A program made the position numbers and the translations under genes. The notes beneath the pieces are model-generated. The model did no database searches, was not told where the DNA came from, and was given only the letters and a program-made list of their open reading frames with translations. This document shows positions 18,773 to 42,603 of a stretch of 45,228 bases of DNA, piece by piece. This stretch comes from Calditrichota bacterium (lineage in GTDB: Bacteria; Calditrichota; Calditrichia; RBG-13-44-9; J042), in assembly GCA_013150955.1 (NCBI GenBank), contig JAADJD010000041.1, positions 1 through 45,228 of the forward strand, written 5' to 3'. Every line of letters starts with the position of its first letter. Position 1 is the first letter of the stretch.

Positions 18773-19283
18773 TCCCAAATGATGCACGAAACCGCGATTC
18801 CCGTGAATGAATCCTTGAAATATCTACAAAATCGCGAATAAACCGCAAAACAAATTTTCATCCAGATCGAATCCAGGGTATTTTACCTAAATTGCGTTAG
18901 ACCACGAATCACGCGAATGAATTCGAAAAAAACAACAAAATAGCGAATCTATCCGGGAAAACATTTTTCATTCCGATAAAATCAAGTGCATTTTATACCA
19001 GATTAAGCAATAGCCTACGAATTACACGAATGAACACAAATAAAACCAATAAAATACATTGGATTGTGTCTGGATGAAAATGTGTTCCGTGTCTGGATGA
19101 AAATGTGTTCCAGGGTTTTTTCGCGATTTTGCAGATATTTTTTGGCTTCATTCGCGTGATTCGAGGTTTATTGCATAATTTGGGTTTATTATTTTTATTG
19201 GTGTTCATTCGTGTCATTCGTGGTCTCATGCATAGGCCGGGTTTATTCGGGGTAATTCGCAGGCCACGGCAAAATCCGGGTTC
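18773..19283. repeat. Dispersed palindromic repeat, copy 4 (composite array of about 510 bp)
   Basis: At least three units are stacked. The first opens TCCCAAATGATGC and AACCGCGATTCCCGTGAATGAA; the second opens CCTAAATTGCGTTAGACCACG; the third opens ACCAGATTAAGCAATAGCC and closes at TTGCATAATTTGGGTTTATT. Two further right ends follow (TCATGCATAGGCCGGG and CACGGCAAAATCCGGGTTCA). The last ends exactly at the stop codon of the mannosyl-3-phosphoglycerate phosphatase gene. Spurious reading frames through it encode repeat-derived text such as FIRVIRG and are not genes. Confidence 0.85.
19066..19111. repeat. Perfect 23-bp tandem duplication inside repeat copy 4
   Basis: Bases 19066-19088 and 19089-19111 are identical (GTGTCTGGATG...TGTTCC). 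Other copies of the repeat have this segment once, so it is a recent slippage-type duplication. Confidence 0.9.
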
Positions 19284-20121
19284 AATGCGATTCTTCGGAT
19301 CCAAGAAAATGCACCATTGCCCAGCTCCACCCTTCCGGACCAATTCCAGGAGCCCGCACAACGGCAAGGGAATCGGGTACCGGGATGTACTGCCCATCCG
19401 GCCGCTGCACCAGAATGGGAACATCCACCACCTGAAGCAAATCCAGGTCGTTTGGGCTATCGCCAATGCCCATTGTTCGCCAGTTGCGATGGGGCCACTC
19501 CCGCTGGTAGGCGGACTTCAACAGTAACGCGGCCTTCCCCTTCCCGGCCATCTCTCCCAGCACATGCCAGAACCGCCCCCCACGGACCAATCGCAGTCCC
19601 TGCCCGGCCAGTTGCTTCTCAAATTGGAGTCGCTTCCGGGCATCATCTTCCCAGAGAATGGGCTCTGATGACCAGCGCTGTCGGGCCAGCCGCGCCTTTT
19701 CCACGGGAAGCCCGGTGAGTCGAGCAACTTCCTCATCCGAACAATCCGAAAATCCCCGAAAACGGTAACCGTTCTCCCGACGCAGCACATTCAGCGTGTT
19801 CACAATCGTCTCGTAGTCCGGACCCAGGAGGCGAACCCGAAATGCGTCCCACTGGTGATCCAGGGGTAATCCCCGAAAATATCCCTCCGGCACCGCAATC
19901 CCGCTACCATTTTCAAAGATCACGGGATGGCGAATTTCCATTTCCCGCTGGAGTTCCCGCACCTCCGCCAGCGTCTTGCTGGTGGAAAAGATTAGCGGTA
20001 TTCGCTTTTTGCGAACAATCTGCAAACCCGGACGGGCCGCCTGCCAGGAATAGGTGTGGTGATCCAATAAGGTCCCATCCAGATCGGTAAAAACAATATA
20101 GGCAACGTCCAGGGGTTGCAT
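19282..20121 (-). CDS. Mannosyl-3-phosphoglycerate phosphatase-like HAD hydrolase
   Basis: This is a 279-residue HAD-IIB phosphatase. Motif I is FTDLDGTLLDHHTYS with the nucleophile D13 and acid D15. Motif II is STSKT and motif IV is GIGDSPNDLDLL; ENGSGIAVPEGYF between them is a hallmark of the MpgP/YedP branch, which dephosphorylates mannosyl-3-phosphoglycerate (and often glucosyl-3-phosphoglycerate) to the compatible solute mannosyl- or glucosylglycerate. The lysine of motif III (MAGKGKAALLL) is present. A GpgS-like glycosyltransferase that could make the substrate is encoded 17 kb away in the window. The stop codon abuts repeat copy 4. Substrate is inferred from family. Confidence 0.85.
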   Translation of the reverse strand: MQPLDVAYIVFTDLDGTLLDHHTYSWQAARPGLQIVRKKRIPLIFSTSKTLAEVRELQREMEIRHPVIFENGSGIAVPEGYFRGLPLDHQWDAFRVRLLGPDYETIVNTLNVLRRENGYRFRGFSDCSDEEVARLTGLPVEKARLARQRWSSEPILWEDDARKRLQFEKQLAGQGLRLVRGGRFWHVLGEMAGKGKAALLLKSAYQREWPHRNWRTMGIGDSPNDLDLLQVVDVPILVQRPDGQYIPVPDSLAVVRAPGIGPEGWSWAMVHFLGSEESH

Positions 20122-20820: not shown

Positions 20821-22281
20821 TTATTTGAGTATTCCTACCTGGGCATTAAACGCCTCAATTTGCCGATCGATTTCTTCCAGCCGATTTTGTTTTTCCATCC
20901 AATAGTCCGGATAATCGTACCACTGCGCATCCAGTTCTTCCACGGACTTGCCCTGCTGCTCGATCCAGGTAAAATATTTTAAATTGTGAATGCGCTTCCG
21001 CTCGTAATACCCCAATTCCATCACGAAATCGGTGTGAATGCCCATGAGGTAGCGATGATAATCCCGGATGGCATCCTCCCGGGTATAGGGACCAAACTGC
21101 TCTCGCATCTCTTCCAGACGGCTGGCGTACAGTTCCATGGAATCCGTGAACACCGTGAACACGGCATCGCGTTCGGTTAACTCGAAATATTTTGCAAACT
21201 TAATGGCGGCAACCAGATTGCCCACCCCGGAAATACCAATGAGCGGCAGCTGCTGGATGTCCTGATCGCTCAGTCCCTGAGCAGCCAGATAATCCTGCCC
21301 CGCCGGTTCGTTAAACAAACGAATCAGGTGCATGGGAAAATGATCGTCCACCGCAATAACCACGTCGGTATTGCGCACGTTGTGGATCCAGGGCACATGT
21401 TTGTCTCCAATCCCCTCAATGCGATGACTTCCGTACCCGTTTAAAAGCAGGGTAGGGCATTGCAGGGCTTCGGCTGCACCGATGCGCATCCCGGGAAACC
21501 GCTCCTTCAGAAAATCGCCGGCGGCAATTGTTCCCGCAGATCCGGTGGCCACCACCAGGCCCGCAAACCGTTCGCGATCCGAAAGCTGCTGATGCAGCAC
21601 CTCCTCCATGGCCCGGCCGGTGACGTGAAAGTGCCACAAATAATTGCCAAACTCTTCGAATTGATTGAAAATGACGATGTCATCCCGGGTGGCCCGCAAT
21701 TCCCAGCATTTATCGTAAATTTCCTTTACGTTCGACTCGCTCCCCGGAGTGGCGATGACCTCCCCGGCAATCGAGCGAAGCCACTCAAACCGTTCCCGAC
21801 TCATCCCTTCGGGCAAAATGGCAATGGATTCGCACCCCAGTAGTGCCGAATTGAAAGCCCCGCCGCGGCAAAAATTCCCCGTTGAGGGCCATACGGCCTT
21901 CTGGGTAGTGGGATCAAACTCCCCGTTGACCAGTCGGGGAACCAGGCATCCAAAGGTCGCCCCCACCTTGTGGGCTCCCGTGGGAAACCATTTGCCCACC
22001 AGCGCAAATATGCGGGCACGCACTCCCGTTAATGTGGAAGGAATCTCCAGAAAATTCACGCCTCCGAAAAGTCCACCGTGAGATACAGGTTCGTTCTTCC
22101 AGCTCACGCGGAACAGGTTCAGGGGATTTACTTCCCAGAGACCCACCTGCTTTAATTTTTCCCGAATCGTTTCCGGAATGGTTTCCGGATTCATCAGCTG
22201 TTTGAAAGTGGGAATAACAATCCCTCGCTCCCGGGCGCGTTGAATCGCTCGCTCAAGAAATTCCTTTTTCTGCTGGCTCAT
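20821..22281 (-). CDS. PLP-dependent fold-type II enzyme (TrpB/cysteine synthase-like), substrate unknown
   Basis: This 486-residue enzyme has the tryptophan-synthase-beta fold pattern. The probable PLP lysine is in FPTGAHKVGATFG. The phosphate-binding and substrate loop is STGNFCRGGAFNSALLG, and a glycine-rich loop is VVATGSAGTIAAGDFL. It is longer than cysteine synthases and carries a C-terminal 70-residue helical tail (KRIHNLKYFTWIEQQ ...). It is not close to E. coli YgeX (2,3-diaminopropionate ammonia-lyase), which has KDES and AFKMLGG, yet occupies a similar place next to the Mo-hydroxylase genes. It sits 112 bp downstream of the threonine-synthase-like gene, same strand. A lyase or deaminase acting on the amino-acid end product of purine breakdown is my inference, not shown by motifs. 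Confidence 0.8.
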   Translation of the reverse strand: MSQQKKEFLERAIQRARERGIVIPTFKQLMNPETIPETIREKLKQVGLWEVNPLNLFRVSWKNEPVSHGGLFGGVNFLEIPSTLTGVRARIFALVGKWFPTGAHKVGATFGCLVPRLVNGEFDPTTQKAVWPSTGNFCRGGAFNSALLGCESIAILPEGMSRERFEWLRSIAGEVIATPGSESNVKEIYDKCWELRATRDDIVIFNQFEEFGNYLWHFHVTGRAMEEVLHQQLSDRERFAGLVVATGSAGTIAAGDFLKERFPGMRIGAAEALQCPTLLLNGYGSHRIEGIGDKHVPWIHNVRNTDVVIAVDDHFPMHLIRLFNEPAGQDYLAAQGLSDQDIQQLPLIGISGVGNLVAAIKFAKYFELTERDAVFTVFTDSMELYASRLEEMREQFGPYTREDAIRDYHRYLMGIHTDFVMELGYYERKRIHNLKYFTWIEQQGKSVEELDAQWYDYPDYWMEKQNRLEEIDRQIEAFNAQVGILK

Positions 22282-22393
22282 GGTTTCCCTCTCCAGTTAT
22301 CGGTTTCGGATTTTTGTCTCTTCCCGCCGCCGTAACTCCCCCACCTCCTCTAATTCTTCACAGCCCCTTTCAGGAACAGGGTGAGTGCTGAAA

Positions 22394-23632
22394 TCACACC
22401 TTTAATGCCCTCTCCACGGCGGCCAGCGAATTCTCGATCCGAATCGGGCTTTGCCTGACCGCCTGGAACACTCCATCAATATCCTTCAACCCGCTGCCGG
22501 TGATTTGCACCAGTACCGTGCTGTGGGAAGGGAGTAAATTCTCCAGCACCATTTTCCGAAGTCCCGCAAATGCGGCCGCAGCAGCAGGTTCGGCCATGAT
22601 TCCACCAACCCGCGCCAGTAGCGCCATGGCTTGGCGAATGGCATCGTCTTCCACGGCAATAAACCGCCCGCCGGACTCCCGAACGGCTTTTAGCGCCTTT
22701 ACCTGATCCCGGGGAACTCCCACCGCAATGCTGTCGGCAAAGGTACGGGGTTCCACCGGTTCTACCGTGTCCTGCCCTTTTTCCCAGGCGGTGACCAGCG
22801 GTGCACTTCCCGCCGCCTGCACCCCAATCAATCTGGGCAGGCGATCAATAAACCCCAGATGATAAAAATCCCGAAATCCCTTCCACATTCCCTGAATGAT
22901 GCACCCATCCCCCACCGGCACAAAAACGTAATCGGGCACCTGCCAGTCCAGCTGTTCACAAATTTCCAGTGCCGCCGTCTTTTTTCCTTCTCCCAGATAG
23001 GGATTAATGGCCGTGCTGCGATTGTACCAGCCCCACTTTTCAGCGGCCTGCATGCACAGATCGAAGGCCTCATCGTAGGTGCCTTCCACCTGCAACACCT
23101 TCGCGCCGAATAACAACAGCTGGGCAATTTTTGCCCGGGGTGCATGGCGGGGCACAAAGATCACCGTCTCCAGTCCGGCCAGCGCGGTGAATGCCGCCCA
23201 GGAAGATGCCGCATTTCCCGTCGAAGCGGCGGTAACCACCCGCGCGCCCCTCTCCAGAGCCTTTACCACGCCTACGGAGCTCGCCCGATCCTTGTACGAG
23301 GCCGTGGGATTCCGGCTATCGTCTTTAATCCATACCCGCTTCAGCTGCCATTCGCGTTCCAGCGTCGGGTTGCGATAAAGGGGTGTCCATCCTACTGAAA
23401 GGGGCAGGATCCTTTCCGGCTGGTCGATGGGCAATACCGGTAAATAACGCCAGTGGGAATTTTCACGGCTGGCTTTCAGATCCTCCCGGCGAAACCGTCG
23501 ACGCACCGTCTCCAGATCGTACACCACCTCCAGCGTTCCCCGAATGGGCCCGCAGGCCGGGCAGGTGTAATCCACTTCCTGTTTATCATACGCGCGGTGA
23601 CAGGTCACACATTTCAACTGGATTTCTGCCAT
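22394..23632 (-). CDS. thrC: Threonine synthase-like PLP enzyme
   Basis: This is a 412-residue protein with an N-terminal zinc-ribbon-like segment (CVTCHRAYDKQ, then TCPACG), as in many ThrC proteins. The PLP lysine lies in NPTASYKDRASS, the phosphate-binding loop is ASTGNAASSWA, and the C-terminal glycine loop is ITGSGLKDID. ThrC makes threonine from O-phosphohomoserine. No hom or thrB gene is nearby, and it lies directly between the XdhD-like gene (116 bp upstream) and another PLP enzyme gene, so a catabolic or paralogous role (for example on a diaminopropionate-type amino acid) is possible. The family is clear; the exact substrate is less certain. Confidence 0.85.
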   Translation of the reverse strand: MAEIQLKCVTCHRAYDKQEVDYTCPACGPIRGTLEVVYDLETVRRRFRREDLKASRENSHWRYLPVLPIDQPERILPLSVGWTPLYRNPTLEREWQLKRVWIKDDSRNPTASYKDRASSVGVVKALERGARVVTAASTGNAASSWAAFTALAGLETVIFVPRHAPRAKIAQLLLFGAKVLQVEGTYDEAFDLCMQAAEKWGWYNRSTAINPYLGEGKKTAALEICEQLDWQVPDYVFVPVGDGCIIQGMWKGFRDFYHLGFIDRLPRLIGVQAAGSAPLVTAWEKGQDTVEPVEPRTFADSIAVGVPRDQVKALKAVRESGGRFIAVEDDAIRQAMALLARVGGIMAEPAAAAAFAGLRKMVLENLLPSHSTVLVQITGSGLKDIDGVFQAVRQSPIRIENSLAAVERALKV

Positions 23633-23748: not shown

Positions 23749-26325
23749 CTATTGCGCTCGCACCCTCAACTTCTTCGGTCGAATGCGCAGGGGCAGTTTA
23801 TACCGGCGGATGCCATCGTACTGGCAGTAGGCATTGGCCACCGCGGCGGCGGTGGGCACCAGGCCAATTTCCCCCACCCCTTTGGCACCGTAGGGGCCGT
23901 GGGGATCGGGAACTTCCACGGCGACCACTTCAACCCGGGGCATTTCTTTTGCCCGCAAAATTCCCAGCTTCCGCAAGCGGGTGGTTTTGGGCACTCCCTT
24001 CTCCAGCACCAGTTCCTCCGTTAACGCATAGCCCAGGCCCATGTGGATGGCCCCTTCGATTTGCCCTTCAAACAGATTGGGATTGATCACTTTACCCGCA
24101 TCATGGGCAGCAATTACTTTTTCCACCTCGCCATCATCATTCAGGATGACCACCTGGGTGGCGTACCCGTACGAGTAATGGGTGATGATTTCCTCCACAT
24201 CGGCACCCGGCTTGGTGGTCCAGTCACACCGCCATTCGCCCTCGTACACGTTGCCGACCAGCTGCTCCAGCGGTTGCTTTTCCAGGTCCCGTTTCAATTG
24301 TTGACAGGCATTCAACAATGAATTGCCGATGATCGATGTGGCCCGGGAGGCGGTGGTCATTCCAGCGGGGGCTTTTGCAATGGTATCGACGCGCACTTCC
24401 ACAATGTCCGCCGGCAAACCGGTCTCCTGGCAGAAAAACTGAACCGCCATGGTGTGGACTCCCTGTCCCATCTCGGTCCACCCATGGTGAATGATGACCC
24501 GATCCGGGGCCTGAATCTCTATTTTCACTTTGCCTTCATCCGGCATGCCATTTCCAATTCCGGTATTTTTGATGCCACAGGCAATTCCGGCATATTTGGC
24601 GCTGTAAAAGGCATCCTTCACCGCCAGCAGGGCTTCGCGCACCCCGCAGGCCGCCTTAATGATCTGCCCGGTGGCGGTCATGCGTCCCTCCGTCAGCGCA
24701 TTACGGTAGCGAAATTCCCAGCGATCAAATCCCCCCAGCTTGCACAATTCATCGATGCAGCTTTCGATGGCAAAGGTTACCTGATTGACCCCAAATCCGC
24801 GCATGGCGCCACAGGGAATGTTGTTGGTGTAAACGGCTCGACTGACAATGTCCACGTTGGGAATATGGTAGGCCCCGGTGGCGTGACCCGCTGCCCGCTC
24901 CAGCACCTTCATGCCCACAGAGGCGTAAGCGCCGGTATCTCCGATGATGCGGGCCCGCAGGGCCGTCAAATTCCCCTCCGCATCGCAGGCCAGGGTGTAT
25001 TCCATTTTCATGGGATGACGCTTGGGGTGCATCCGGATGGACTCGTCCCGTGTGAGGGTGATTTTCACCGGCTTCTTCAGCAAATGGGCAAACAAGGCCG
25101 TGTGGCCCTGAACAGACAAATCTTCCTTTCCCCCAAATCCCCCTCCATTGGAGACCAGAATCACCCGGACCTTTTCCCGGGGCAGTCGCAGCAATTGGGC
25201 AATTTGCACTTGATCGTCATACACGCCCTGGCCCTGAGAATACACCCGAAGTCCATCGCCTTCCGGAACGGCCAGGCAACTTTCCGGCTCCATGAATGCG
25301 TGTTCGATCATCTGGGTCTCGTAAACGCCGTGGGTCACATGGGCGGCCTCTTTCAGCGCCTGATCCACGTCACCGCGCTGGATGACGGTTTCGGAAAGCA
25401 GATTCCCCCGGGGATGAATTGCCGGACTCTCCGGCTTCAGCGCCTCTTCCGGATCAGTGATCGGCTCCAGCACCTCGTAAGTGACCCGAATGGCGGCCAC
25501 CGCCTGCCTGGCTGCATCTTCCGAAGTCGCCACCACTCCGGCCAGCACATCGCCCACGTAGCGGGTCTCTTCTCCCTCCTGAATCATCAGCGGCCAATCT
25601 TTGACAATGAGGCCGGTGAAGCGTTCTCCGGGAATATCTTTTGCGGTAAACACCCGCACCACCCCGGGAATTTTGCTGGCAGCATCGGTGTCAATCCGAA
25701 TCACCCGGGCACGGGGATGATCACTAAATTTCAATGCCCCGTACAGCATACCCGGCACTTTCATATCGGCAATGAAGGGCCGCTGGCCAAGGACCAGCTT
25801 TTCCGCTTCATATTTCGGGTAGGACTGCCCCACGCCCGTCTGCCGGGGCATTTCCGGCAGCGAGTCGCTCTTCTGTTTCAGCTCCGCAGCATATAAAATG
25901 GCGTCCACAATCTTCTGGTACCCGGTGCAGCGGCAGAGATTGGGCGTTAACGCCTGCCGAACCTTTTCTTCATCGGGCCGGGGATGATGATCCAGTAACA
26001 CTTTTGCCTGCATCACAAAGCCCGGAATGCAATACCCGCATTGAACCCCTCCTTTTTCCACAAACGCGCGGGCAAAAATGCGCTGCAGTTCCGGTTCCAT
26101 GCCCTCTATGGTGATCACGTTTCCATCCGCCACTTTCTTCATGGGAGTCACACAGGAAAGCACCGCCCTGCCATTTAATTCCACCGTACAGGCACCACAG
26201 GCCGCCTGTGGCGAGCAGCCGTCCTTAGGCGAGGTGATCCCCTCGATTTCCCGCAGGTACCTCAACAACGAAAGATCCGGGTCCCCGTCATAAACCCTTT
26301 CCTGACCATTTAACCAGAACCTCAT
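23749..26325 (-). CDS. XdhD-like molybdenum hydroxylase with fused [2Fe-2S] domain (selenium-dependent xanthine dehydrogenase type)
   Basis: This 858-residue enzyme combines an N-terminal ferredoxin domain with the Mo-pterin domains; there is no FAD domain. The first cluster uses C37, C43, C46 and C58 and the second C96, C99, C131 and C133 (QCGYC and LCRCTGY). The Moco part has GGGFGGKEDLS (Glu of the purine site), MRGFG (Arg contacting the substrate) and KGVGEIG near the C-terminus with the catalytic Glu. This domain order matches the family annotated as selenium-dependent xanthine dehydrogenase and XdhD, found with YgfK, SsnA, YgeW and YgeY. The start has AGGAGGT upstream. Electrons must leave to a separate flavoprotein or ferredoxin. 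Which purine it acts on, and whether selenium is needed, cannot be read here. Confidence 0.9.
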   Translation of the reverse strand: MRFWLNGQERVYDGDPDLSLLRYLREIEGITSPKDGCSPQAACGACTVELNGRAVLSCVTPMKKVADGNVITIEGMEPELQRIFARAFVEKGGVQCGYCIPGFVMQAKVLLDHHPRPDEEKVRQALTPNLCRCTGYQKIVDAILYAAELKQKSDSLPEMPRQTGVGQSYPKYEAEKLVLGQRPFIADMKVPGMLYGALKFSDHPRARVIRIDTDAASKIPGVVRVFTAKDIPGERFTGLIVKDWPLMIQEGEETRYVGDVLAGVVATSEDAARQAVAAIRVTYEVLEPITDPEEALKPESPAIHPRGNLLSETVIQRGDVDQALKEAAHVTHGVYETQMIEHAFMEPESCLAVPEGDGLRVYSQGQGVYDDQVQIAQLLRLPREKVRVILVSNGGGFGGKEDLSVQGHTALFAHLLKKPVKITLTRDESIRMHPKRHPMKMEYTLACDAEGNLTALRARIIGDTGAYASVGMKVLERAAGHATGAYHIPNVDIVSRAVYTNNIPCGAMRGFGVNQVTFAIESCIDELCKLGGFDRWEFRYRNALTEGRMTATGQIIKAACGVREALLAVKDAFYSAKYAGIACGIKNTGIGNGMPDEGKVKIEIQAPDRVIIHHGWTEMGQGVHTMAVQFFCQETGLPADIVEVRVDTIAKAPAGMTTASRATSIIGNSLLNACQQLKRDLEKQPLEQLVGNVYEGEWRCDWTTKPGADVEEIITHYSYGYATQVVILNDDGEVEKVIAAHDAGKVINPNLFEGQIEGAIHMGLGYALTEELVLEKGVPKTTRLRKLGILRAKEMPRVEVVAVEVPDPHGPYGAKGVGEIGLVPTAAAVANAYCQYDGIRRYKLPLRIRPKKLRVRAQ

Positions 26326-26982: not shown

Positions 26983-28935
26983 CTACCGGGAAGCCAGCAA
27001 TACAATTGCCGGGTAATTTGCCGGATCGTTTAAAAATCCCTGCAGAAGGGTTTTAAAAATGTGATACGGTTCCAGCGTCAACAAAACATCCCGATTCCCT
27101 TTCACCTGCCAGTTGATTAATTGATCGGTAGCATTCAGCCAGATCTCCGCATCGCGGGTCTTCCAGTAATAGGTTTTCTTTTCCGGATCAAACCGCAGCA
27201 GGTATTCCTCCCCATTTAAGCGCCCCTGCAACGAATACCGATCCGGGAAATAAAATCCATCATATTTCCGGAATTTGCGATAGGTTTCGGCATTCAGGAA
27301 AAATCGTGGCTTTTCGATGAACGGACCGCCATGCTCGGGACAATAGGTATCGCAATTCCCGCACTCATTGCACCAGTCCGCAATATTGGCAATCTGAAAT
27401 GATTTCTCCAGCTGAAAGGTTCCACTGGGGGAATATTCCAGATGATCCCCGGAAATGTGATACTGATGCACCGTACGCTCTCCCGGCTCCGAAGGGATGG
27501 CAAAGTTGGCCGCGTTGGGACATACGGACAGGCACTTGTTGCAGGTTAAACAATCGAACAGTGAAAGGTGGCTATCCACTTTTGGTGGATTCTTCTGATT
27601 CCGCGAATAGTGATATCGAGGATCCTGTACCAGCTGCGAGACGTACCGCTCCATGTTGGCCATTCCCGCTGCCGCAACGGTTTGCTCCTCATTCCCTTCA
27701 CTCGACCGGAGAATGTAGTCCTGAATGGTGTTGACCCCCAGGGCTTCCATTTCTGTTTTCAACTGCTTTAAATAATCGAACAATCGGGTGTAGCCACCGG
27801 TTTTAAGCAGATCGGTACACACAGTAATGGGTGTCAGGTGGCAGCGAACGGCATCGGCGAAATTGTATCTGGAGATTCCCGCCGAAAAGGAGATGGGGAA
27901 TTGGTCGCCCAGCGCCCGGCGGAACCGATAGGCCGCATGCATGGCCAGGACATGCAGCGGGGTTCCCGACAGGTACATGACCTCGTCTTTGAAAAAGTCC
28001 TGATTGTTTTTTACCACCAGGGTATTGGTGAATTTGGCCCCAACACGTTTCCCATGCTGCCGGGCAAACACCTGCAAGCGTTTCATCATATCCACCGCCT
28101 CGTCAAACTGCAGATCGTGCGCAAAGGCCTGTGGATCCAGTTCCAGGTAGGAGTAACCCAGCTGTTCAATCAGTATTTCGCGCACCGCGTCATATCCCAG
28201 CAGCGTGGGATTCATTTTGACAATGACGTGAAAGCCCTGTTCCGCAATCAGGTACTGGACAATGGATTCGATCTCGTCCCGGGGACATCCGTGGAAGGTG
28301 GACAGGGTAACGGAATCCGCAATGTACGGATCCACGGGAAATTTCCGGAATTGGGAAAACTCCGGCGAAAGCGATCGCAACATGGTCTCGATTGCGGCCG
28401 AAGCATCCCGCATATGGCGAAGCCACTGGCTCACCCGATCCGAGGTGATGCCCTTCAGATCGTAACCCACGGACACATCGAATATGGTGCGGTAAAACGG
28501 AGAGCCTTTGGGCACCTCCAGCAACTCCATCTCCTCGATCAATTTAATGAGTACCCAGGCAGTAACGTATTCCTGGTAAGATTCGTCCAGGGTCAGTTCC
28601 TGAGACCATTCCACATTAAAGCCGATGTTTGGTGCGTAAATGCAGGGGCGGGGAATCTCCAGCCGATCCAGGACTTGCACCGTCTTTAGCTCAATGATTC
28701 GGGCGCCCCCCAGAAATGCCAGCACAATATTTTGCGCCAGCTGGGTGTGGGGACCGGAAGCGGGTCCCAGCGGCGTGGCAGCCTCTTTCTCGTGGAATGG
28801 AACCGAAAAATCATACCCTTCAAACCCGGTAAAGAATTTTCGGCGGGGATAACCGTAAATGCGCTGATGCGCTCTCAATTCGGAAGTGATTGCCTTCAAA
28901 TGGGTTCCCAGAGGAATGCCTTTCAGCTCTGCCAT
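26983..28935 (-). CDS. ygfK: YgfK-like iron-sulfur protein lacking the internal FAD/NAD(P) module
   Basis: This 650-residue protein matches the two ends of E. coli YgfK (about 1,030 residues). Residues 1-430 are the dihydroorotate-dehydrogenase-like barrel (ATPLGPASGPHTQLAQNIV, IELKTVQVLDRLEIPRPCI, TLSTFHGCPRDEIESIV, KMNPTLLGYDAVREIL, TDLLKTGGY). At 455-535 come two ferredoxin-type motifs, C462-C465-C468-C472P and C522-C525-C528-C532P, followed by a 115-residue tail. The roughly 400-residue GltD-like flavin/pyridine-nucleotide domain that E. coli YgfK carries between these parts, and its extra Cys motif, are absent, with no sign of a frameshift. YgfK is the electron-transfer partner of XdhD-type enzymes (selenate reductase-like or 2,8-dioxopurine/urate reductive chemistry). 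This form must use another electron donor. The start has GGAG nine bases upstream. Confidence 0.88.
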   Translation of the reverse strand: MAELKGIPLGTHLKAITSELRAHQRIYGYPRRKFFTGFEGYDFSVPFHEKEAATPLGPASGPHTQLAQNIVLAFLGGARIIELKTVQVLDRLEIPRPCIYAPNIGFNVEWSQELTLDESYQEYVTAWVLIKLIEEMELLEVPKGSPFYRTIFDVSVGYDLKGITSDRVSQWLRHMRDASAAIETMLRSLSPEFSQFRKFPVDPYIADSVTLSTFHGCPRDEIESIVQYLIAEQGFHVIVKMNPTLLGYDAVREILIEQLGYSYLELDPQAFAHDLQFDEAVDMMKRLQVFARQHGKRVGAKFTNTLVVKNNQDFFKDEVMYLSGTPLHVLAMHAAYRFRRALGDQFPISFSAGISRYNFADAVRCHLTPITVCTDLLKTGGYTRLFDYLKQLKTEMEALGVNTIQDYILRSSEGNEEQTVAAAGMANMERYVSQLVQDPRYHYSRNQKNPPKVDSHLSLFDCLTCNKCLSVCPNAANFAIPSEPGERTVHQYHISGDHLEYSPSGTFQLEKSFQIANIADWCNECGNCDTYCPEHGGPFIEKPRFFLNAETYRKFRKYDGFYFPDRYSLQGRLNGEEYLLRFDPEKKTYYWKTRDAEIWLNATDQLINWQVKGNRDVLLTLEPYHIFKTLLQGFLNDPANYPAIVLLASR

Positions 28936-29104: not shown

Positions 29105-30460
29105 TCAGCGCGTCTGATAAAACCGTTCCCATACCCGCCGCGCCACGACGCGTGCTTCGTAGGCAATCTTCTCCTCATCGATGTGAAGCAATTGCCGGTC
29201 GCGCATAATCACCCGGCCATTCACGATGGTCGTATTTACCGGCGCATCAATAAAACCAAACAGAAAATGTCCCCAGATGTTGTCCGGGGTCAACTCGGTA
29301 GGTGCCCAGTAGTCCAGTAAAATCAGGTCTGCCAGGAAACCTTCTTTGACCTGCCCCACCGGTTGCCCGGAAATTTCCCGGTAAATCCGGGGATTGTTTT
29401 TCCAGGCCATGGTCTGGATCTCCTCCCACCCAAAATTGGGATCCTGCAGGGCATGCTTGTGCAACCAGGCCGCCATGCGAACATCCGCCTTAACATCCGG
29501 CGTCATGCCATCGGTACCGATGCCCGCAATCACCCCTCGATTCAATAATCCCAAAATATCCGTTCGCCCCACCGCATTGTTCATATTGGATTGCGGCTGG
29601 TGGGCGATAAATGCTCCCGATTCGGCCAGTAGATCTTTCTCCTTTTCATTCAGGTGAATGCAATGGGCGGCGATTGCCCCCGAAGTTAACACCCCGCTGC
29701 GCACCAGCCGTTCAATGACGCTTTGCTGCCCATATTTCCGGAAGGTCTCTTCCCGATCCACCGCATCCTCCAGCACATGAATATGGCACCCCCGATTTAA
29801 GGTTCGGCTCAAATCCACCGCCGCTTCCAGGGTATTGTCATCCACCGTAAAAGAGGCGTGCAGTCCCACCATGCCATCAAAGGGGTGGGATGGATCGTGC
29901 TGGCGTGCACGCTGACATTCCCTGATATAGCGCTCGTTCTCCCGAAGGCCCTGCTGGGCAATGGCCCTGCCATCGCGATCGGAAACCTCGTAGCACAGGA
30001 TGCCGCGTAATCCCACCTGAGCCAGTGCCGCTTCGATTCGATCCAGGCTGCCATCCACCGCATGGGGACTGGCATGGTGGTCGATAAATGCGGTCACCCC
30101 GGCCTTTGCCGCACCAATCGCCGGTAACAACGCACTGAAATACACCGCTTCGGGATCCAGCGAACGATCCAGGCGCCACCACAAAAATTTCAGAATCTCA
30201 GCAAAATTTCGCGGGGTTTCAGGCAGCGCCAGTCCCCGGGCAAAGGTGCTGTAAAAATGCATGTGCACATTCACCCAGCCAGGCATCAGCAGGCGGCCCC
30301 CGCCATCCAGGACGGGCAAATCGGCATACGCCTCCCGCAACTGTAGTTCGGAACCCACGGCCACAATCCGATTCCCTTGAATGGCCACCGCCCCGTTCCG
30401 GATAACCCGATTTTGTTCATCATTGACAAAAATTTCCACATTGGTAATCAACAGGCTCAT
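29105..30460 (-). CDS. ssnA: SsnA-type amidohydrolase (aminohydrolase of purine-degradation clusters)
   Basis: This 451-residue amidohydrolase-superfamily enzyme is related to guanine and chlorohydrolase-type deaminases. Metal ligands are visible: H-M-H in NVHMHFYSTFARG, His in GLHASF, His in AAHCIH, and Asp in GIGTDGMTPDV. The text VHMHFYSTFARGLAL and TNNPRIYREI-like KNNPRIYREI are characteristic of SsnA, found with YgfK and XdhD. SsnA is proposed to hydrolyse a purine-derived ring. I chose the ATG (MSLLITNV) preceded by GGGGGG; a GTG 12 bp upstream is the only alternative. It lies upstream of ygfK on the same strand with 169 bp between. Repeat copy 5 starts 58 bp upstream of its start codon. 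Confidence 0.92.
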   Translation of the reverse strand: MSLLITNVEIFVNDEQNRVIRNGAVAIQGNRIVAVGSELQLREAYADLPVLDGGGRLLMPGWVNVHMHFYSTFARGLALPETPRNFAEILKFLWWRLDRSLDPEAVYFSALLPAIGAAKAGVTAFIDHHASPHAVDGSLDRIEAALAQVGLRGILCYEVSDRDGRAIAQQGLRENERYIRECQRARQHDPSHPFDGMVGLHASFTVDDNTLEAAVDLSRTLNRGCHIHVLEDAVDREETFRKYGQQSVIERLVRSGVLTSGAIAAHCIHLNEKEKDLLAESGAFIAHQPQSNMNNAVGRTDILGLLNRGVIAGIGTDGMTPDVKADVRMAAWLHKHALQDPNFGWEEIQTMAWKNNPRIYREISGQPVGQVKEGFLADLILLDYWAPTELTPDNIWGHFLFGFIDAPVNTTIVNGRVIMRDRQLLHIDEEKIAYEARVVARRVWERFYQTR

Positions 30461-30517
30461 ATTGCCCCCCACATTTCAATTGCAACCATCAACCATATGG
30501 ACAGAGGTCATCCATTA

Positions 30518-31056: not shown

Positions 31057-31596
31057 CTACATTACCCGCAAGCGGATGTGACATTCGGGTGCTCCGTTCA
31101 GCATACACTGGGTTTCGCTTACGGAAATCCGTTCGCCAAAATGATTGGCCACTCCCCGGGCAATACCTTTGGCCAGGGCACACATCTTTCGGGGCGAAGC
31201 GTAAACCAGCAGCAACTCACCGGGACTGATCCGCTGGCATTTCAATTCGGCCGGTCGGGCTCCCGGATTTTTCATACGCACCACCTTGTGAATCACTTCT
31301 TCGGTATTCTCAATCAAATCCAGCGTTTTCCAGTTGGGCTGCACCAGCGCTTTGTACATCTGAAGCAATTGCGGCGCAATGAATTGCCCAAACTCTTCGA
31401 GAATCACCGCCGGCGATTTGTGCGTGATCCGGGCAGCTGCCTGCACCAGCGCTACCGCTTCCTGATCGGGATATTCCTGGATGGCCATGTAAATCCGATT
31501 TCCCAGTCCGGCTTCTTTTAACAGACGCTGCCAGGCCCCCGGGCCAAGGGAATGATCCACAAACTTACGTAATTCGGAGAAAACGATTCCATGCAT
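31057..31596 (-). CDS. H-NOX (heme NO/O2-binding) domain protein, stand-alone
   Basis: This is a 179-residue single-domain H-NOX protein. It opens MHGIVFSELRKFVDHSLG, the standard start of the family. The proximal heme ligand is H103 in LIENTEEVIH, and the propionate-binding YxSxR motif is Y132-A-S134-P-R136. C139, C164 and C172 (the last two in CMLNGAPEC) recall the cysteine cluster that binds zinc in some bacterial H-NOX proteins. Such proteins sense nitric oxide and usually sit next to a histidine kinase or diguanylate cyclase; none is adjacent here. It is monocistronic, with its own terminator, inside the purine-degradation island. A signalling role toward these oxygen-sensitive enzymes is an inference only. 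Confidence 0.85.
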   Translation of the reverse strand: MHGIVFSELRKFVDHSLGPGAWQRLLKEAGLGNRIYMAIQEYPDQEAVALVQAAARITHKSPAVILEEFGQFIAPQLLQMYKALVQPNWKTLDLIENTEEVIHKVVRMKNPGARPAELKCQRISPGELLLVYASPRKMCALAKGIARGVANHFGERISVSETQCMLNGAPECHIRLRVM

Positions 31597-32216: not shown

Positions 32217-33338
32217 CTATCTGGATGAGGAATTAAGGTGGGTCTTCTGAAATTCGGCAATTTGCAGCCGCATGGGCCTGCCCTGCCCCCCGCGCCGAAT
32301 CATGATTATTTCCGCCAGCACGCTGATGGCAATTTCTTCCGGAGTCAGGGCACCGATGTCCAGTCCCACAGGCGCGTACACATTTTCCAGTCGAGAAGCC
32401 GGCGTGCCATCATCCCGCAAATGCCGCAGGATCATGAGAATCTTTCGCTTGCTCCCCAGCACCCCAATGTAGCGGGCCGGGGTCGCAACCGCCGCCTGAA
32501 CCGCCCGGTCATCGTAACGATGCCCCCGCGTTGCCGCAATAATGAACGCATTCCGGGGCACATTAAACTGGCGCAGGGCCTGATCATACGGCGCCACGTA
32601 AATCTCGTCGGCTTCGGGGAATCGTTCCGGGTTGGCAAATTCCGCCCGATCGTCGATAACGATGATGCGAAAATCCAGATGTCGCGCCAGGGAAGCAATG
32701 GCTTTGTTCACATGCCCACCTCCCAGCAGAATCAAGGTAACCGGGGCGGTGATGCCTTCCAGAAAAATGCGCGCCCCATCCTGTGTATCGATTAATTGAT
32801 TTTCCCCGTAAGGTGCCAGCTGCCGGGCCCGGGCAATCACCGATTTGTCCGGCACCGGAAATGTTCCTTCCCCCAGAACCGTTCCATCCATGCGAATGAT
32901 TACCTTCAGCCCAACGGGCAGATTCGTCTTCCCTCCATCAACCACGGTGACCATTGCAACCGGTGAGTCCCCTTCCAGCGCGTTTTCCAGCTCCGACAAC
33001 ATCCGGGTGGACACATGGGGAGATGGGAAGGGTTCCAGCAGAAACCGCATGGTCCCCCCACACACCATGCCATCCTGTGCGGCCAGCTCGGCATTCAATG
33101 TATGTTGAACCGTGCAGGCCGTTCCCCCTTCGGCCAGCAATCGTTTGGCCCGGTACCACAAATCCCCTTCCACACACCCACCCCCCAGCGTGCCGACAAA
33201 CGATCCATCCGGGCGCACCAGCAATCGGGCACCCGCCTTCTGGGGGGACGATCCCCGCGTCTCCACCACAGTAACCAGCACACAGGGCTGCTGACGCTTC
33301 AAACAGGCCAGCCACTCTTTCAACACCGTTTGTTTCAT
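32217..33338 (-). CDS. xdhC: XdhC-type molybdenum cofactor insertion/sulfuration chaperone
   Basis: XdhC binds Moco, protects its sulfurated form and inserts it into xanthine dehydrogenase. The 373-residue protein has the N-terminal XdhC/CoxI domain (ETRGSSPQKAGARLLV, GGGCVEGDLW, MVCGGTM) and the C-terminal Rossmann domain (LLGGGHVNKAIASLARHLDF, AATRGHRYDDRAV, YIGVLGSKRK). It is the last gene of the xdhA-xdhB-xdhC run, 136 bp after xdhB. In clusters with selenium-dependent hydroxylases, YqeB, YqeC and YgfJ usually do cofactor maturation; none is in the window. Confidence 0.95.
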   Translation of the reverse strand: MKQTVLKEWLACLKRQQPCVLVTVVETRGSSPQKAGARLLVRPDGSFVGTLGGGCVEGDLWYRAKRLLAEGGTACTVQHTLNAELAAQDGMVCGGTMRFLLEPFPSPHVSTRMLSELENALEGDSPVAMVTVVDGGKTNLPVGLKVIIRMDGTVLGEGTFPVPDKSVIARARQLAPYGENQLIDTQDGARIFLEGITAPVTLILLGGGHVNKAIASLARHLDFRIIVIDDRAEFANPERFPEADEIYVAPYDQALRQFNVPRNAFIIAATRGHRYDDRAVQAAVATPARYIGVLGSKRKILMILRHLRDDGTPASRLENVYAPVGLDIGALTPEEIAISVLAEIIMIRRGGQGRPMRLQIAEFQKTHLNSSSR

Positions 33339-33474: not shown

Positions 33475-35781
33475 TTACTTTCCTGCGGAGCTCGTCGCCA
33501 GCACACGGGATCGCAACCGGGCAATTTCTTCCCGGTGCAGTTCCATGAGCACGCGTTCCGGAGTCAACGGCGCCCGGAAGGCATAGTCCTCCCGCGGGCG
33601 AAACGCCTGCATGGCCTGCCGGATGGCAAAAAACACCCCTATCCCATACATAAACGGCGGCTCACCAACCGCCTTATTACCGAACGGGCCTGTGGGCTCA
33701 TCCGCATTTTCCAGAAAGGTAACCTCTAAATCATCGGGCATGAAATACACATCGGGCAGCTTGTAGGTCGCCAGCGCTCCAGACAGATTCCGGCCATTTT
33801 CGTCGAACACCAACTCTTCCACAGTCATCCATCCCAGTCCCTGGGCCAATCCTCCTTCCACCTGGCCCAGATCGACCCGTCGATTCAGCGGCCGTCCCAG
33901 ATCGTGCACAATCTTCACCGCATCGATGGTATACGTGCCTCGCAGCGCATCCAGGGTTACTTCCAGGATGGCGGTACCGTAGACGTGATAGGCAAACGGC
34001 CGGCCCTTTTCCTTCTGCTTATCGAAATAAATGCCGGGTGTGGCAAAAAATCCATGGGCCGAAAGACTCACCCGCTTAAAATAGGCCGTCTGCACCAGCT
34101 TTTCCCAGGTCCAGCCGGTCTCGCTCCCCCGGTAAAAAATTTTCTCATCCTGAATGGTAATGGATTCCGGATCGGGGACATTCAACTCCCTGGCCACCAG
34201 GGGTTTTAATCGGGAAAGAATTTGCTGAATGGCCAGCAGAGTGGCATTTCCGTTCAGCACGGTGGTGGCACTGGCGGCACTGGGGGACATGTTCGCAATG
34301 CGGGTGGTGTTGGTGGACTCCATCTTAATTCGTTCCAGTCGAATGCCCAGTGCCCGCGCAGCAATGGTGGCAATGTTTGCGCGCAGTCCCTGCCCCATCT
34401 CCACTCCGCCGGTCGAAATGCTCACGCTGCCATCCGTGTACACATGCACCAGGGCACTGGCCTGATTCAAAAACGTGGCGGTAAAGGAGATGCCAAAACA
34501 GATGGGCATGACCGCCAGGCCCTTCTTTTTATGAAAATGAGATTGGTTAAACTGCTCGACCCGCTGCTTCCATTCGGAAAAGCGGTACACTTCCATGGCC
34601 GTGTCCCAGGTTCGGCGTGCGCGGCAATCCGTTGCCCGCTGCCCGTATGGGAACAGATCATTTTCCTTCAACAGGTTTTTCCGCTGAATCTCCTCCCGCG
34701 GCATGTTTAACGCCTCGGCGACCCGGGCAATGGCAGACTCCATCACGAACATCCCCTGGGGTCCACCAAAGCCCCGAAACGCGGTAAACGGTGGCAAATG
34801 GGTCCGGCAGGACACCGCAAACAATCGCACATTGGGAATAAAGTAGCTGTTGGTGCTGTGAAAGAGGGTTCGTTCCAATATGGCGGGCGAAAGGTCCGCA
34901 GCCGCCCCCGCATTTTGATAATGCCGCACCTCGAAAGCCAGGATCCGGCCATCGCGGGTTACCCCGATTTTAAAATCGGACTGATAGGGGTGGCGCTTTC
35001 CGGTCATGATCATGTCTTCTTCCCGGGATAAAACCAGCTCCACCGGCTTACCGGTATGCCAGGTGGCCAGCGCCACCAGACAGGCCCATGCCGTTGCCTG
35101 ATCTTCCTTTCCACCAAAACCACCGCCCAGTCGCAGCACGTCTACTTCGATGAGATGATTGGGATAACCCAGGACCCTGGCTGCATGGCGCTGCACCGCG
35201 TAAGGGCTCTGGGTGGAAGAATAAATGCGGATTGCTTTCCCCTCAGCCGGGACCGCCCGGGCCCGCTGGGTTTCCAGATACACATGCTCCTGTCCGCCAA
35301 TTTCACAATGGCCTTCCAGAACCAGATCGCATTGCTCCCAGGCTGCCTCCACATCCCCCAGCTGAAACACCCGCGGGGTGCCAATGATTTCTCCTTTCTC
35401 GTACGCTTCCCGGGGATCGGTAATCACCGGCAGATGATCCACCTGCAGGGAAATCCGCCGGGCCGCTTTACGCGCCTGTTCCGCATGGGTGGCCACTACC
35501 AGTGCAACGGGCTGGCCAATATAAAACACCTCCTCGCTGGCCAGCAATTCCTGATCCGGAATCAACGGACCGATTTGATTTTCTCCGGGAATATCTTTTG
35601 CCGTCAATACCGCAACCACGCCTTCCATTTCCAGTGCCGCAGAAACATCCAGCTGGCGGATACGCCCATGCGCTACCGGAGAGAAAAACACCGCTGCGTG
35701 AAGCATGCCCTCCGGTTGGGGCAAGTCGTCCACATAACGGGATTCCCCCCGGGTATGAAGTTCGGGATCATGGAATGGCAT
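33475..35781 (-). CDS. xdhB: Xanthine dehydrogenase molybdopterin-binding subunit
   Basis: This is a 768-residue Mo-pterin subunit of xanthine dehydrogenase. The active-site text is canonical: GGGFGGKEDQ (Glu near the purine), FTAFRGFGGPQGM (Arg that orients xanthine) and NKAVGEPPFMYG with the catalytic Glu. The order matches the C-terminal two thirds of bovine XDH. Its start (after GAGGG) overlaps the end of xdhA by 14 bp, so the subunits are translationally coupled. With xdhA it should form an alpha-beta dehydrogenase oxidising hypoxanthine and xanthine with NAD+. It is distinct from the XdhD-like enzyme 7 kb away; the window thus encodes two Mo hydroxylases. Confidence 0.96.
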   Translation of the reverse strand: MPFHDPELHTRGESRYVDDLPQPEGMLHAAVFFSPVAHGRIRQLDVSAALEMEGVVAVLTAKDIPGENQIGPLIPDQELLASEEVFYIGQPVALVVATHAEQARKAARRISLQVDHLPVITDPREAYEKGEIIGTPRVFQLGDVEAAWEQCDLVLEGHCEIGGQEHVYLETQRARAVPAEGKAIRIYSSTQSPYAVQRHAARVLGYPNHLIEVDVLRLGGGFGGKEDQATAWACLVALATWHTGKPVELVLSREEDMIMTGKRHPYQSDFKIGVTRDGRILAFEVRHYQNAGAAADLSPAILERTLFHSTNSYFIPNVRLFAVSCRTHLPPFTAFRGFGGPQGMFVMESAIARVAEALNMPREEIQRKNLLKENDLFPYGQRATDCRARRTWDTAMEVYRFSEWKQRVEQFNQSHFHKKKGLAVMPICFGISFTATFLNQASALVHVYTDGSVSISTGGVEMGQGLRANIATIAARALGIRLERIKMESTNTTRIANMSPSAASATTVLNGNATLLAIQQILSRLKPLVARELNVPDPESITIQDEKIFYRGSETGWTWEKLVQTAYFKRVSLSAHGFFATPGIYFDKQKEKGRPFAYHVYGTAILEVTLDALRGTYTIDAVKIVHDLGRPLNRRVDLGQVEGGLAQGLGWMTVEELVFDENGRNLSGALATYKLPDVYFMPDDLEVTFLENADEPTGPFGNKAVGEPPFMYGIGVFFAIRQAMQAFRPREDYAFRAPLTPERVLMELHREEIARLRSRVLATSSAGK

Positions 35782-37189
35782 AATAGTCCCTCACCTGCAT
35801 TTTTTCCGGAAAAAGTTCCGTAAAATGGGCAATAATCAATTGCCGGGTTAAAAGCCGCTTGTAATCCGCACTTCCACGGATATCGCTGATGGGCGAAATT
35901 TCTTCCATCGCCTGTTCGATGGCCCCTTCAACGGTTTCAGGGGTACAGGGCCTGCCCACCAAAAACCGGCTGGTCTTTTCCAGGTAGAGGGGAATTGGCG
36001 CCACGCCTCCCACTGCCAGCGCCGCTTCTCGAATGATGCCTGCTGCATCGCAGCGCAGGCGAATGGCACTGTTTACCGAAGCAATATCCAGTGTCCGCCG
36101 CTTGCTCACCTTTTCAAAATGAATCTGACACTTTCCAACAGAAAGCGGCAGGCGCACTTCGGTCAGAATCTCACCCGGCTGTTTGTCCAGTTGTTTGTAT
36201 CCACGATATAATTTCCGCAACGGAATCACCCGCTGCTGTCGGCCTTTTTGCATCACCACTTCTGCATCCAGGGCCAGCAGCAGAATGACCCCATCGGCGA
36301 TGGGTGAAGCGTTGATGATGTTGCCACCAATGGTGGCCCGGTTGCGAATCTGCAGGGAAGCCACCAGAAACATGTACTCCTGAATCCGGGGAACCAGCTT
36401 CTGCACTTCGGGATGATTGCCCAGTTCCTCGAAGGTCGTCAGCGCCCCGATACGCAAAAACCTCCCCGCGCGTCGGATGCCTTTCATCCGGGGGTAGCGA
36501 TTCAGGATGTGCACGCTGGCTTCGGGGAGCATCTCCCCGCGCTGCACGTAAATATCCGTCCCCCCGGCAATGATCAGGCGCTCCTCCGATCGCCCATCGC
36601 GGGATACGGGAGGTGGAATCCGACGTAACCGTTCGGGCATTTCCAGAAAATACGCTGGCAACCAGCCATGTTTTACCAGTTCCTCCACGCCGGTATGCTC
36701 GCCCACTATCTTCTTCAAATGCAAATAAGCGTCTTTCAGGGAACGGTATCCGGTGCACCGACACAGGTGGCCGCTCAACCAGCGCTTGACGCCATCAGCG
36801 GTAATGGGTTGATCCGTTTGCATCAAATAGCCCGTTAACGACACCACAATGCCCGGGGTGCAAAAACCGCACTGGGTGGCACCTTCCTCCACAATGGCTT
36901 TTTGAACGGGATTCAAATAGGGCAGGTTTAATCCCTCGATGGTAACCAGATGTTTTCCATGCAATTCTCCCACCGGCATTAAACAGGAGGTCACCGGTCG
37001 ATATACCACGTCGTCGCCCTGTAATTCTCCCACCAACACCGTACAGGCACCGCAATCCCCTTCCTTACAACCCTCTTTTGTGCCCACCAGCCGCTGTTTC
37101 TTACGGAGATAATCCAGCACCAATAAACCGGGAGGCTCGTTGCAGCGTATCTCTTCGTTGTTTAACCAGAAATGGAGCTGTGCCGACAT
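35768..37189 (-). CDS. xdhA: Xanthine dehydrogenase small subunit ([2Fe-2S] and FAD domains)
   Basis: This 473-residue subunit carries two [2Fe-2S] clusters then a CO-dehydrogenase-flavoprotein-type FAD domain. The first cluster is GCKEGDCGACTV plus a later Cys (TSCLMP); the second is TQCGFCTPG with HLCRCTGY. The FAD domain (from about residue 190) contains IIAGGTDIYVQRGE, TIGGNIINASPIADG and the C-terminal GGVAPIPL. It passes electrons from the XdhB Mo site to NAD+. I chose the ATG with GAGGAA six bases upstream rather than the TTG two codons before. It is the first gene of the xdhABC run; the 200 bp upstream hold no repeat. Confidence 0.96.
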   Translation of the reverse strand: MSAQLHFWLNNEEIRCNEPPGLLVLDYLRKKQRLVGTKEGCKEGDCGACTVLVGELQGDDVVYRPVTSCLMPVGELHGKHLVTIEGLNLPYLNPVQKAIVEEGATQCGFCTPGIVVSLTGYLMQTDQPITADGVKRWLSGHLCRCTGYRSLKDAYLHLKKIVGEHTGVEELVKHGWLPAYFLEMPERLRRIPPPVSRDGRSEERLIIAGGTDIYVQRGEMLPEASVHILNRYPRMKGIRRAGRFLRIGALTTFEELGNHPEVQKLVPRIQEYMFLVASLQIRNRATIGGNIINASPIADGVILLLALDAEVVMQKGRQQRVIPLRKLYRGYKQLDKQPGEILTEVRLPLSVGKCQIHFEKVSKRRTLDIASVNSAIRLRCDAAGIIREAALAVGGVAPIPLYLEKTSRFLVGRPCTPETVEGAIEQAMEEISPISDIRGSADYKRLLTRQLIIAHFTELFPEKMQVRDYYAIP

Positions 37190-37396
37190 GGCCAATTCCT
37201 CATCATCATAATCAAAAGGACTTTTGAAAACAGGACACTTCTTTTACCGCCGGGCTCACAAAGCCAGCTGTCCAGACCTGTCCGGAAAACTGCTTCCCCA
37301 ATCACAATCCGCGATCTACCAGGGAAAATAACACGGCGATTCAGGGAATGCAAACAGATTCAGGGGGGAACGGGGCATCCCCTGGCGAGGGAAAAT

Positions 37397-38602: not shown

Positions 38603-38767
38603 CTTGCCCCCCAAAGATGGTTTTTCCATTTACCGTGAAAGTCCCATGGTAAAATATACAAAAATATCTCCGACGAATGTAGCGAAAGCTCAGAATTTGT
38701 TGGCACCTGGATAATCACCGGAGAGGGACACCTGTTCCAGGCGGTCAAGCGAGCTTACCGGGGGATT

Positions 38768-40016: not shown

Positions 40017-40170
40017 AAACAATAAAATAACGCCCGCGGGAGACCCAAGACCAGAGAAATGAAAAATTTTGTCCCCCTGAACCGAATGGGTTTTCAATTT
40101 TTCCTTTATTTTCAGGGTGGGATTTACGATAATCCGGTGTTCCACAGGAAACGATTCAGGAGGTGGCGAT

Positions 40171-41361: not shown

Positions 41362-41499
41362 GAATACCGTCCGGGCAGATGTTTGCATTCCGGCAGGGAA
41401 TGCCCTTAAATTAAGCCAATCAACGATGCGATGAGCAAAATGTGGAGGGATGCCACGGAATCGATTTTCTGAAACCGTAAAACGAAAAGGAGGCGAGAC

Positions 41500-42480: not shown

Positions 42481-42485
42481 ACATT

Positions 42486-42558
42486 GCCGCCCGATAGTAG
42501 ACGGCCCGTGGCATCGCGAGTAAGGCGGGCGGCTCTCTCGACCCGGCAGAAAAGCCGG
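42486..42558. other. Structured intergenic segment between ygeW and the hydantoinase gene
   Basis: Two hairpins lie in tandem: GCCGCCCG (42486-42493) pairs with CGGGCGGC (42526-42533) around a 32-base loop, and CCGGC (42543-42547) pairs with GCCGG (42554-42558) around AGAAAA. Neither is followed by a T-run, so they are not classical terminators. They could stabilise the ygeW mRNA end or regulate the next gene; nothing known was recognised. Confidence 0.4.
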
Positions 42559-42568
42559 TGAATTTGTT

Positions 42569-42580
42569 GTAAAATTTTAC
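42569..42580. promoter_or_regulatory. 12-bp palindrome upstream of the hydantoinase gene
   Basis: GTAAAATTTTAC is perfectly symmetric and sits 24 bp upstream of the chosen hydantoinase start codon. It resembles the arms of the inverted repeat before the XdhD-like gene. A shared regulator is possible but not shown. Confidence 0.4.
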
Positions 42581-42603
42581 CACATAAACAGGTGGAAACA
42601 CAG

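Follow-up and report, generated by a model that had tools for sequence, protein, structure and literature searches.

A pair of fold-type II pyridoxal 5'-phosphate enzymes linked to reductive urate degradation genes in a Calditrichota genome without YgeX

The anaerobic reductive urate pathway was elucidated only in 2025 and its distribution has been assessed by broad Pfam labels. In E. coli and C. difficile it is described as the set XdhD–YgfK/UacX–SsnA–HyuA–YgeW/UacY–YgeY–YgeX (Li et al., 2025; PMC12507026), in which YgeX is the 2,3-diaminopropionate (DAP) ammonia-lyase. The same authors report E. coli YgeX, a single protein, to be equally active on the D and L isomers; according to PMC12990295 the ureido intermediates still lack a settled stereochemistry. 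We analysed a stretch of 45,228 nt (the window; contig JAADJD010000041.1, assembly GCA_013150955.1) from the 99.7% complete genome of a Calditrichota bacterium, in which two genes for fold-type II pyridoxal 5'-phosphate (PLP) enzymes, here termed ThrC-L and P486, lie among homologues of the pathway genes. By analogy, the gene set of the window is taken to encode reductive urate/purine degradation leading to DAP.

As in E. coli and C. difficile, XdhD, SsnA, a hydantoinase, a YgeW-like protein and YgeY are encoded within a 25-kb region. The locus differs from theirs in that YgfK is short and ThrC-L and P486 are present instead of YgeX. No YgeX was found among the window proteins or in the whole genome (best NF006058 score 46 bits, cut-off 276), and this missing last step is the more telling because YgeY, YgeW and the hydantoinase are encoded at 40117–44001 on the plus strand. 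The seven PF00291 matches of the genome are CysK, an IlvA-type protein, ThrC-L, a divergent ThrC-like protein, two TrpB and P486 (those other than the pair named by eye). The two genes in question are as follows.

20821–22281, minus strand: P486, a 486-residue fold-type II PLP enzyme of the cysteine synthase/CBS group (open reading frame; PF00291, 54 bits)
22394–23632, minus strand: ThrC-L, a 412-residue threonine synthase relative (NF006050, 331.6 bits, cut-off 303)

Both open reading frames were confirmed on the minus strand after the XdhD gene, as the initial annotation had it, and the motif TGAHKVGATFG is present in the 486-residue protein. Membership of the pair in the reductive urate pathway is very likely, and on balance at least one of its members probably performs the DAP step. 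The reading that we favour, with moderate confidence, is that the pathway ends here in a conserved ThrC-L and P486 module instead of YgeX, with ThrC-L as the DAP ammonia-lyase.

Linkage was examined in relatives of P486, of which named genomes contain at least 589; the closest 80 were taken as P486 stretches. These came from KSB1, Chloroflexota, Halanaerobiales, Atribacterota, Spirochaetota, Marinimicrobia, Synergistales and others. A ThrC relative was found in 53, a YgeW-type carbamoyltransferase in 44, a YqeA-type kinase in 33 and YgeY in 23; rarer were a hydantoinase (20), a molybdenum hydroxylase (17), SsnA (10) and YgfK (7), and YgeX was found in none of the 80. At least one of YgeW, YgeY, HyuA, SsnA and YgfK was present in 59. 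The closest named relative (L038, KSB1) has the order XdhD–ThrC–P486–YgeY–YgeW. The association of the two genes is not peculiar to this locus. In three genomes (G027, G028 and G016) ThrC-L adjoins SsnA or YgeY and P486 is located elsewhere.

A PgfS-like glycosyltransferase gene lies between ThrC-L and P486 in Anaerolineae (L065, L074, L075, L081, L085, L089, L103, L113 and L117), where a Bmp-type ABC transporter set precedes and, in several loci, SelB comes after. In Synergistales (L047, L072 and L101) a serine hydroxymethyltransferase gene occupies this position (Pfam match checked on the L072 copy).

Genome-level co-occurrence was assessed in 299 genomes from the phylum that includes Halanaerobium (the Bacillota sample; SsnA over the cut-off in 70), with a P486 threshold of E ≤ 1e-100, and in the class of the window genome. 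Among the Bacillota, P486 was present in 31 of 70 SsnA-positive versus 10 of 229 SsnA-negative genomes (Fisher 1e-14, kinship among genomes uncorrected). The corresponding counts for the class, also compared by Fisher tests with kinship uncorrected and with a weak match in G018 (31% identity) scored as absent, were 23/25 versus 4/15, and 21 of 22 YgeY-positive versus 6 of 18 YgeY-negative genomes carried P486. Within the SsnA-positive Bacillota, P486 occurred in 22 of 28 genomes with YgeY in the cluster versus 14 of 42 without; the 28 comprise 13 with P486 only, nine with P486 and YgeX, five with YgeX only and one with neither, all of these counts taking in matches in the stretch to a subfamily, P486b, with 42–46% identity to P486 where measured. 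Of the genomes with YgeY and without YgeX, 30/31 hold P486 (17/17 in the class and 13/14 in the Bacillota). YgeX was found in none of 28 genomes of the class that were searched, and all 17 of these with YgeY hold P486. The 486-residue family, for which the initial annotation proposed a neighbourhood analysis, co-occurs strongly with SsnA and YgeY.

ThrC-L passes the curated threonine synthase models (NF006050 as above; TIGR00260, 217 versus 167 bits). Threonine synthases are also its nearest solved structures, both by sequence (2zsj, 239 bits) and by the fold of its model (Z 47–43); a DAP ammonia-lyase, 5ygr, appears in the structure list at Z 35.2. The PLP lysine is predicted to be K114 and is kept across the clade. 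Two trees were calculated, comparing the ThrCs linked to the pathway with 15 other ThrCs and then with 23 others, a third ThrC-like subfamily having been added. Both grouped the linked ThrCs in one clade separate from the other ThrCs, with support of 100/100 for the clade of 38 in the second tree. Five rows labelled unlinked fell inside the linked clade in the first tree, and all five sit in purine clusters; one protein classed as linked at a score of 403 (L329, from G063) fell outside it in the second.

Residues were compared between 65 linked ThrCs and 15 biosynthetic-type ThrCs. The Thr after STGN and the Asn-Ser and Arg of NSxNPYR, present in 15/15 of the latter, are lost in 65/65 of the former, which have gained R205, K217, D242-G243 and D300-S301 in 65/65 and A117 and S118 in 63/65 each. 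The lost residues are those that we take to hold the phosphate of O-phosphohomoserine in ThrC. A search of the literature on the phosphate-binding residues of ThrC and on the residues of DAP ammonia-lyase found no paper. Compared with threonine synthase, then, ThrC-L is closest by sequence and fold, and differs in its own clade, in the lost T, NS and R positions and in the new invariant D242 and D300-S301.

The third ThrC-like subfamily (L307, L322, L324, L334, L297 and L308) is neither biosynthetic-type nor linked. It is carried by several genomes from the same order as the window genome, P486-negative ones included, with scores of 220–316 against the hidden Markov model of the linked ThrCs.

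Many P486 genomes carry a second, better-scoring ThrC. In four Bacillota in which the linked ThrC is the only TIGR00260 match (G118, G230, G268 and G317), homoserine dehydrogenase was absent from 4/4, whereas it was present in 14/14 control genomes. ThrC-L is in general probably not a normal threonine synthase; for the window genome itself, clade and residues argue for the same conclusion. There, the check for another thrC with thrB and hom gave a mixed outcome: no second ThrC scored over the cut-off, homoserine dehydrogenase was present and no thrB was found over the cut-off by model search. A congener likewise has the linked ThrC only, with homoserine dehydrogenase present and thrB again not scoring over the cut-off. 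The 843-residue ThrA-type gene of the window genome, read by eye, lies in an apparent methionine operon and not beside thrB or thrC. Since the genome has homoserine dehydrogenase and a single canonical ThrC, its gene content is compatible with a threonine role of ThrC-L there. The initial annotation had named, as the combination that would speak against its proposal, a sole thrC grouping with biosynthetic ThrC and a 486-residue family not co-occurring with purine genes; the thrC is indeed the only one over the cut-off in the genome, but it falls in a separate clade, and P486 co-occurs with the purine genes.

For P486, PF00291 is the sole model passed; the curated equivalog models cysK, CBS and SbnA are failed (83/351, 69/510 and 42/350 bits, respectively). 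The AF2 model (pLDDT 91.8) has as its top PDB match β-cyanoalanine synthase (3vc3; Z 35.2, rmsd 2.5, 311 aligned residues). The structural matches include Fn1055 of Fusobacterium, cysteine synthases, CBS and O-ureidoserine synthase; the 50 listed are of the CysK/CBS type (Z 31–35), and no DAP ammonia-lyase is among these 50, although a longer list may hold one. On this model P486 has the cysteine synthase/CBS fold. Its motifs align onto the genome's own CysK. With the CysK/CBS/Fn1055 group it shares the fold, the PLP lysine (predicted to be K105 in TGAHKVG), the S-T-G-N and G-S-A-G-T loops, EGIG and D-S; it differs in having TGAHKVG for GGSVKDR and additional N- and C-terminal segments, and its identity is about 17–28% over the aligned part, with scores far under the curated cysK and CBS cut-offs. 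A TrpB-like identity, suggested by the TGAHK motif, was rejected, as fold and profile point to CysK/CBS.

We infer the substrate, the reaction and the division of labour of the two enzymes as follows. ThrC-L, with PLP on K114, would abstract the α-proton of DAP; loss of the β-ammonium would give aminoacrylate, which would be converted to pyruvate and ammonia. P486, with PLP on K105, would be a partner that shares this substrate or takes an adjacent one, its likeliest roles being the other DAP isomer or β-replacement on DAP. From its sequence features ThrC-L is probably the DAP ammonia-lyase. It is the better candidate of the two because it stands beside SsnA or YgeY without P486 in the three genomes named above, because the ThrC residues are gone from its clade and acidic residues that might face a cationic substrate have appeared there, and because its fold relatives deaminate; threonine deaminase activity has been published for a ThrC-family protein (PMC12172450). 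With YgeX, the proposed lyase shares fold type II, the proposed reaction and the genomic position of the final DAP step. It differs in that no protein of the genome exceeds 46 bits against NF006058; ThrC-L matches 4d9g at 25 bits, and its structural similarity to DAP ammonia-lyase (Z about 35) compares with 47 to ThrC.

Several observations weigh against this assignment. Two enzymes for a one-enzyme reaction require explanation. YgeX is missing also from ten P486-negative genomes that were searched, so that its absence is not specific. In four of 70 SsnA clusters the stretch holds YgeX together with the ThrC–P486 pair, and P486 (E ≤ 1e-100) is present in nine of 20 YgeX- and SsnA-positive Bacillota genomes; the module is therefore not simply a substitute for YgeX. 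One genome (G151) has YgeY and neither P486 at the threshold nor YgeX, and another (G034) has YgeY and P486 with no ThrC-L and no SsnA. P486b stands beside SsnA or XdhD with no ThrC in 7/70 SsnA stretches; in four genomes its neighbour is SsnA, and in three it is XdhD accompanied by a short YgfK. Among the 80 P486 stretches, 15 are without any pathway gene searched, several of them being short contigs. The linked ThrC is the only ThrC over the cut-off in the window genome, which has two homoserine dehydrogenases, and the YgeW-like and YgfK-like proteins of the window score under the curated cut-offs.

The initial annotation had placed the two PLP enzymes in the position of YgeX. This is accurate for the window genome and does not extend to a general rule, given the coexistence just described; YgeX scores over the cut-off in four of 70 P486-positive genomes, and in one more (G093) the gene is split. 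A simple orthologous replacement of YgeX by P486 is weakened by their occurrence together. Its further suggestion, that the pair supplies an alternative end step, stands as far as the place of the pair in the pathway and the lack of YgeX in the genome are concerned.

Among the alternatives, it is unlikely that P486 by itself acts as the lyase on DAP (or albizziin) and that ThrC-L has another job in the pathway. This would accord with the tracking of YgeY by P486 in both samples, with P486b adjoining SsnA or XdhD without ThrC, and with the chemistry of the fold group, which performs β-elimination or β-replacement on alanines with a β leaving group (Fn1055 converts cysteine to H2S and L-serine; PMC5348791). 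It fits poorly with the genomes in which ThrC-L rather than P486 stands beside SsnA or YgeY, and with the coexistence of P486 and YgeX in nine of 20 YgeX-positive genomes.

A quite unlikely, more far-reaching version is that most non-enteric reductive urate degraders use a two-enzyme PLP module in which ThrC-L deaminates one DAP isomer to pyruvate and P486, likened to Fn1055, replaces the β-amino group of the second isomer with water or sulfide. Purine carbon would then exit as serine or cysteine, beyond pyruvate alone; the serine hydroxymethyltransferase between the pair in Synergistales would fit a serine product.

That P486 is a cysteine- or selenocysteine-splitting enzyme for the maturation or S/Se supply of the molybdenum hydroxylases, only ThrC-L being metabolic, is very improbable. 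The CysK/CBS-like fold, with H2S-producing enzymes among the top matches, is compatible with such a role, and P486 lies near yqeB/XdhC-family genes in ten stretches (L048, L076, L099, L105, L107, L199, L240, L244, L253 and L254), which also counts against a plain exchange of YgeX for the pair; yet YgeW, YqeA, YgeY or ThrC stand beside P486 in more stretches than maturation genes do, and in SsnA-positive genomes P486 is commoner with YgeY in the cluster. Finally, the proposal that ThrC-L is an ordinary housekeeping threonine synthase placed here by chance, with P486 an unrelated amino-acid enzyme, is weakened and highly unlikely: it draws on the passed thrC models and on ThrC-L being the only canonical ThrC alongside two homoserine dehydrogenases, and it is opposed by the separate clade spanning phyla, the loss of residues common to all 15 biosynthetic-type ThrCs, the lack of a thrB over the cut-off, the 4/4 tested Bacillota without homoserine dehydrogenase and the recurrent linkage to YgeW, YgeY and SsnA.

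The remaining pathway genes of the window, among which XdhD, SsnA and the hydantoinase pass the curated cut-offs, are listed below.

23749–26325, minus strand: XdhD-like molybdenum hydroxylase (TIGR03311, 993.5 bits, cut-off 830)
26983–28935, minus strand: short YgfK-like protein of 650 residues (TIGR03315, 445 bits, cut-off 835)
29105–30472, minus strand: SsnA aminohydrolase (NF005540, 518 bits, cut-off 444)
32217–33338, minus strand: XdhC-family maturation factor (NF045664, 298 bits, cut-off 350; PF13478 and PF02625 over cut-off)
33475–35781, minus strand: xanthine dehydrogenase molybdopterin subunit (TIGR02965, 790 bits, cut-off 849.5)
35768–37195, minus strand: xanthine dehydrogenase small (FeS/FAD) subunit (TIGR02963, 357 bits, cut-off 467)
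40117–41361, plus strand: YgeY-type M20 peptidase (55% identity to E. coli YgeY, E 9e-144; PF01546)
41500–42480, plus strand: YgeW-like carbamoyltransferase (NF005538, 275 bits, cut-off 453; TIGR03316, 256 bits, cut-off 500)
42592–44001, plus strand: HyuA-type D-hydantoinase/dihydropyrimidinase (TIGR02033, 455 bits, cut-off 393)

SsnA, the short YgfK, XdhD, ThrC-L and P486 form a row on the minus strand, in which 116 bases separate XdhD from ThrC-L and 112 bases separate ThrC-L from P486. The YgeY, YgeW-like and hydantoinase genes lie on the plus strand 10–20 kb from this row, with the XdhAB-type subunits and the XdhC-type factor between. By analogy, the XdhD-like protein would convert urate to yanthine and the YgeY-type peptidase would carry out the last ureido hydrolysis, giving DAP. 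YgeW is the best match of the carbamoyltransferase, yet under the curated cut-offs. The short YgfK-like protein has the N-terminal part (best TIGR03315 stretch 4–398 of 1012) and in addition a 4Fe-4S region; no FAD/pyridine-nucleotide module was detected in it, its Pfam matches being Fer4 only. Similar forms, covering roughly the first 40% of the YgfK model with no FAD module detected, occur in L220, L232 and L239 as well as in the window; in Bacillota the gene lies between XdhD and SsnA, and L239 also has a UacX-like DHO_dh gene. This hints at ferredoxin, in place of NAD(P)H, as the donor.

Two carbamoyltransferases per cluster were observed in L040, L041, L044, L061, L063, L064, L067, L071, L073, L096 and L306, most with a carbamate kinase and most lacking a nearby YgeY (a weak YgeY is present in L041 and L044); such clusters could recover the two ureido groups in the form of carbamoyl phosphate. 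Immediately upstream of SsnA in the window (31057–31596, minus strand) is a gene for a 179-residue haem-NO-binding (H-NOX, PF07700) protein with a V4R match, kept within the genus (85% over 81 residues in L119); beside an anaerobic pathway it is possibly an NO/O2 sensor. A glucosyl-3-phosphoglycerate synthase-like gene (37397–38629, minus strand) and a mannosyl-3-phosphoglycerate phosphatase-family gene (19282–20121, minus strand) lie on either side of the purine genes and perhaps form an osmolyte route.

No paper tying threonine synthase relatives or the 486-residue family to urate breakdown was found in the PMC subset searched, which mostly excludes subscription journals. In the SsnA network of Li et al. 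YgeX is marked by PF00291 (PMC12507026). The cut-off of this family is passed by both ThrC-L and P486; as all three meet it, a map based on PF00291 is blind to the difference between them. Judged from sequence comparison, the ThrC-L/P486 ending would be a variant of the known pathway, newly described here. If so, the pathway would be complete in several phyla with few or no YgeX genes (Chloroflexota, Halanaerobiales, KSB1 and others), the threonine synthase annotations in those phyla would be wrong and two unassigned PLP families would gain a testable function. With E. coli YgeX reported to take either isomer, and with the ureido intermediates described as stereochemically unsettled (PMC12990295), the two-enzyme variant would offer a direct handle on their stereochemistry.

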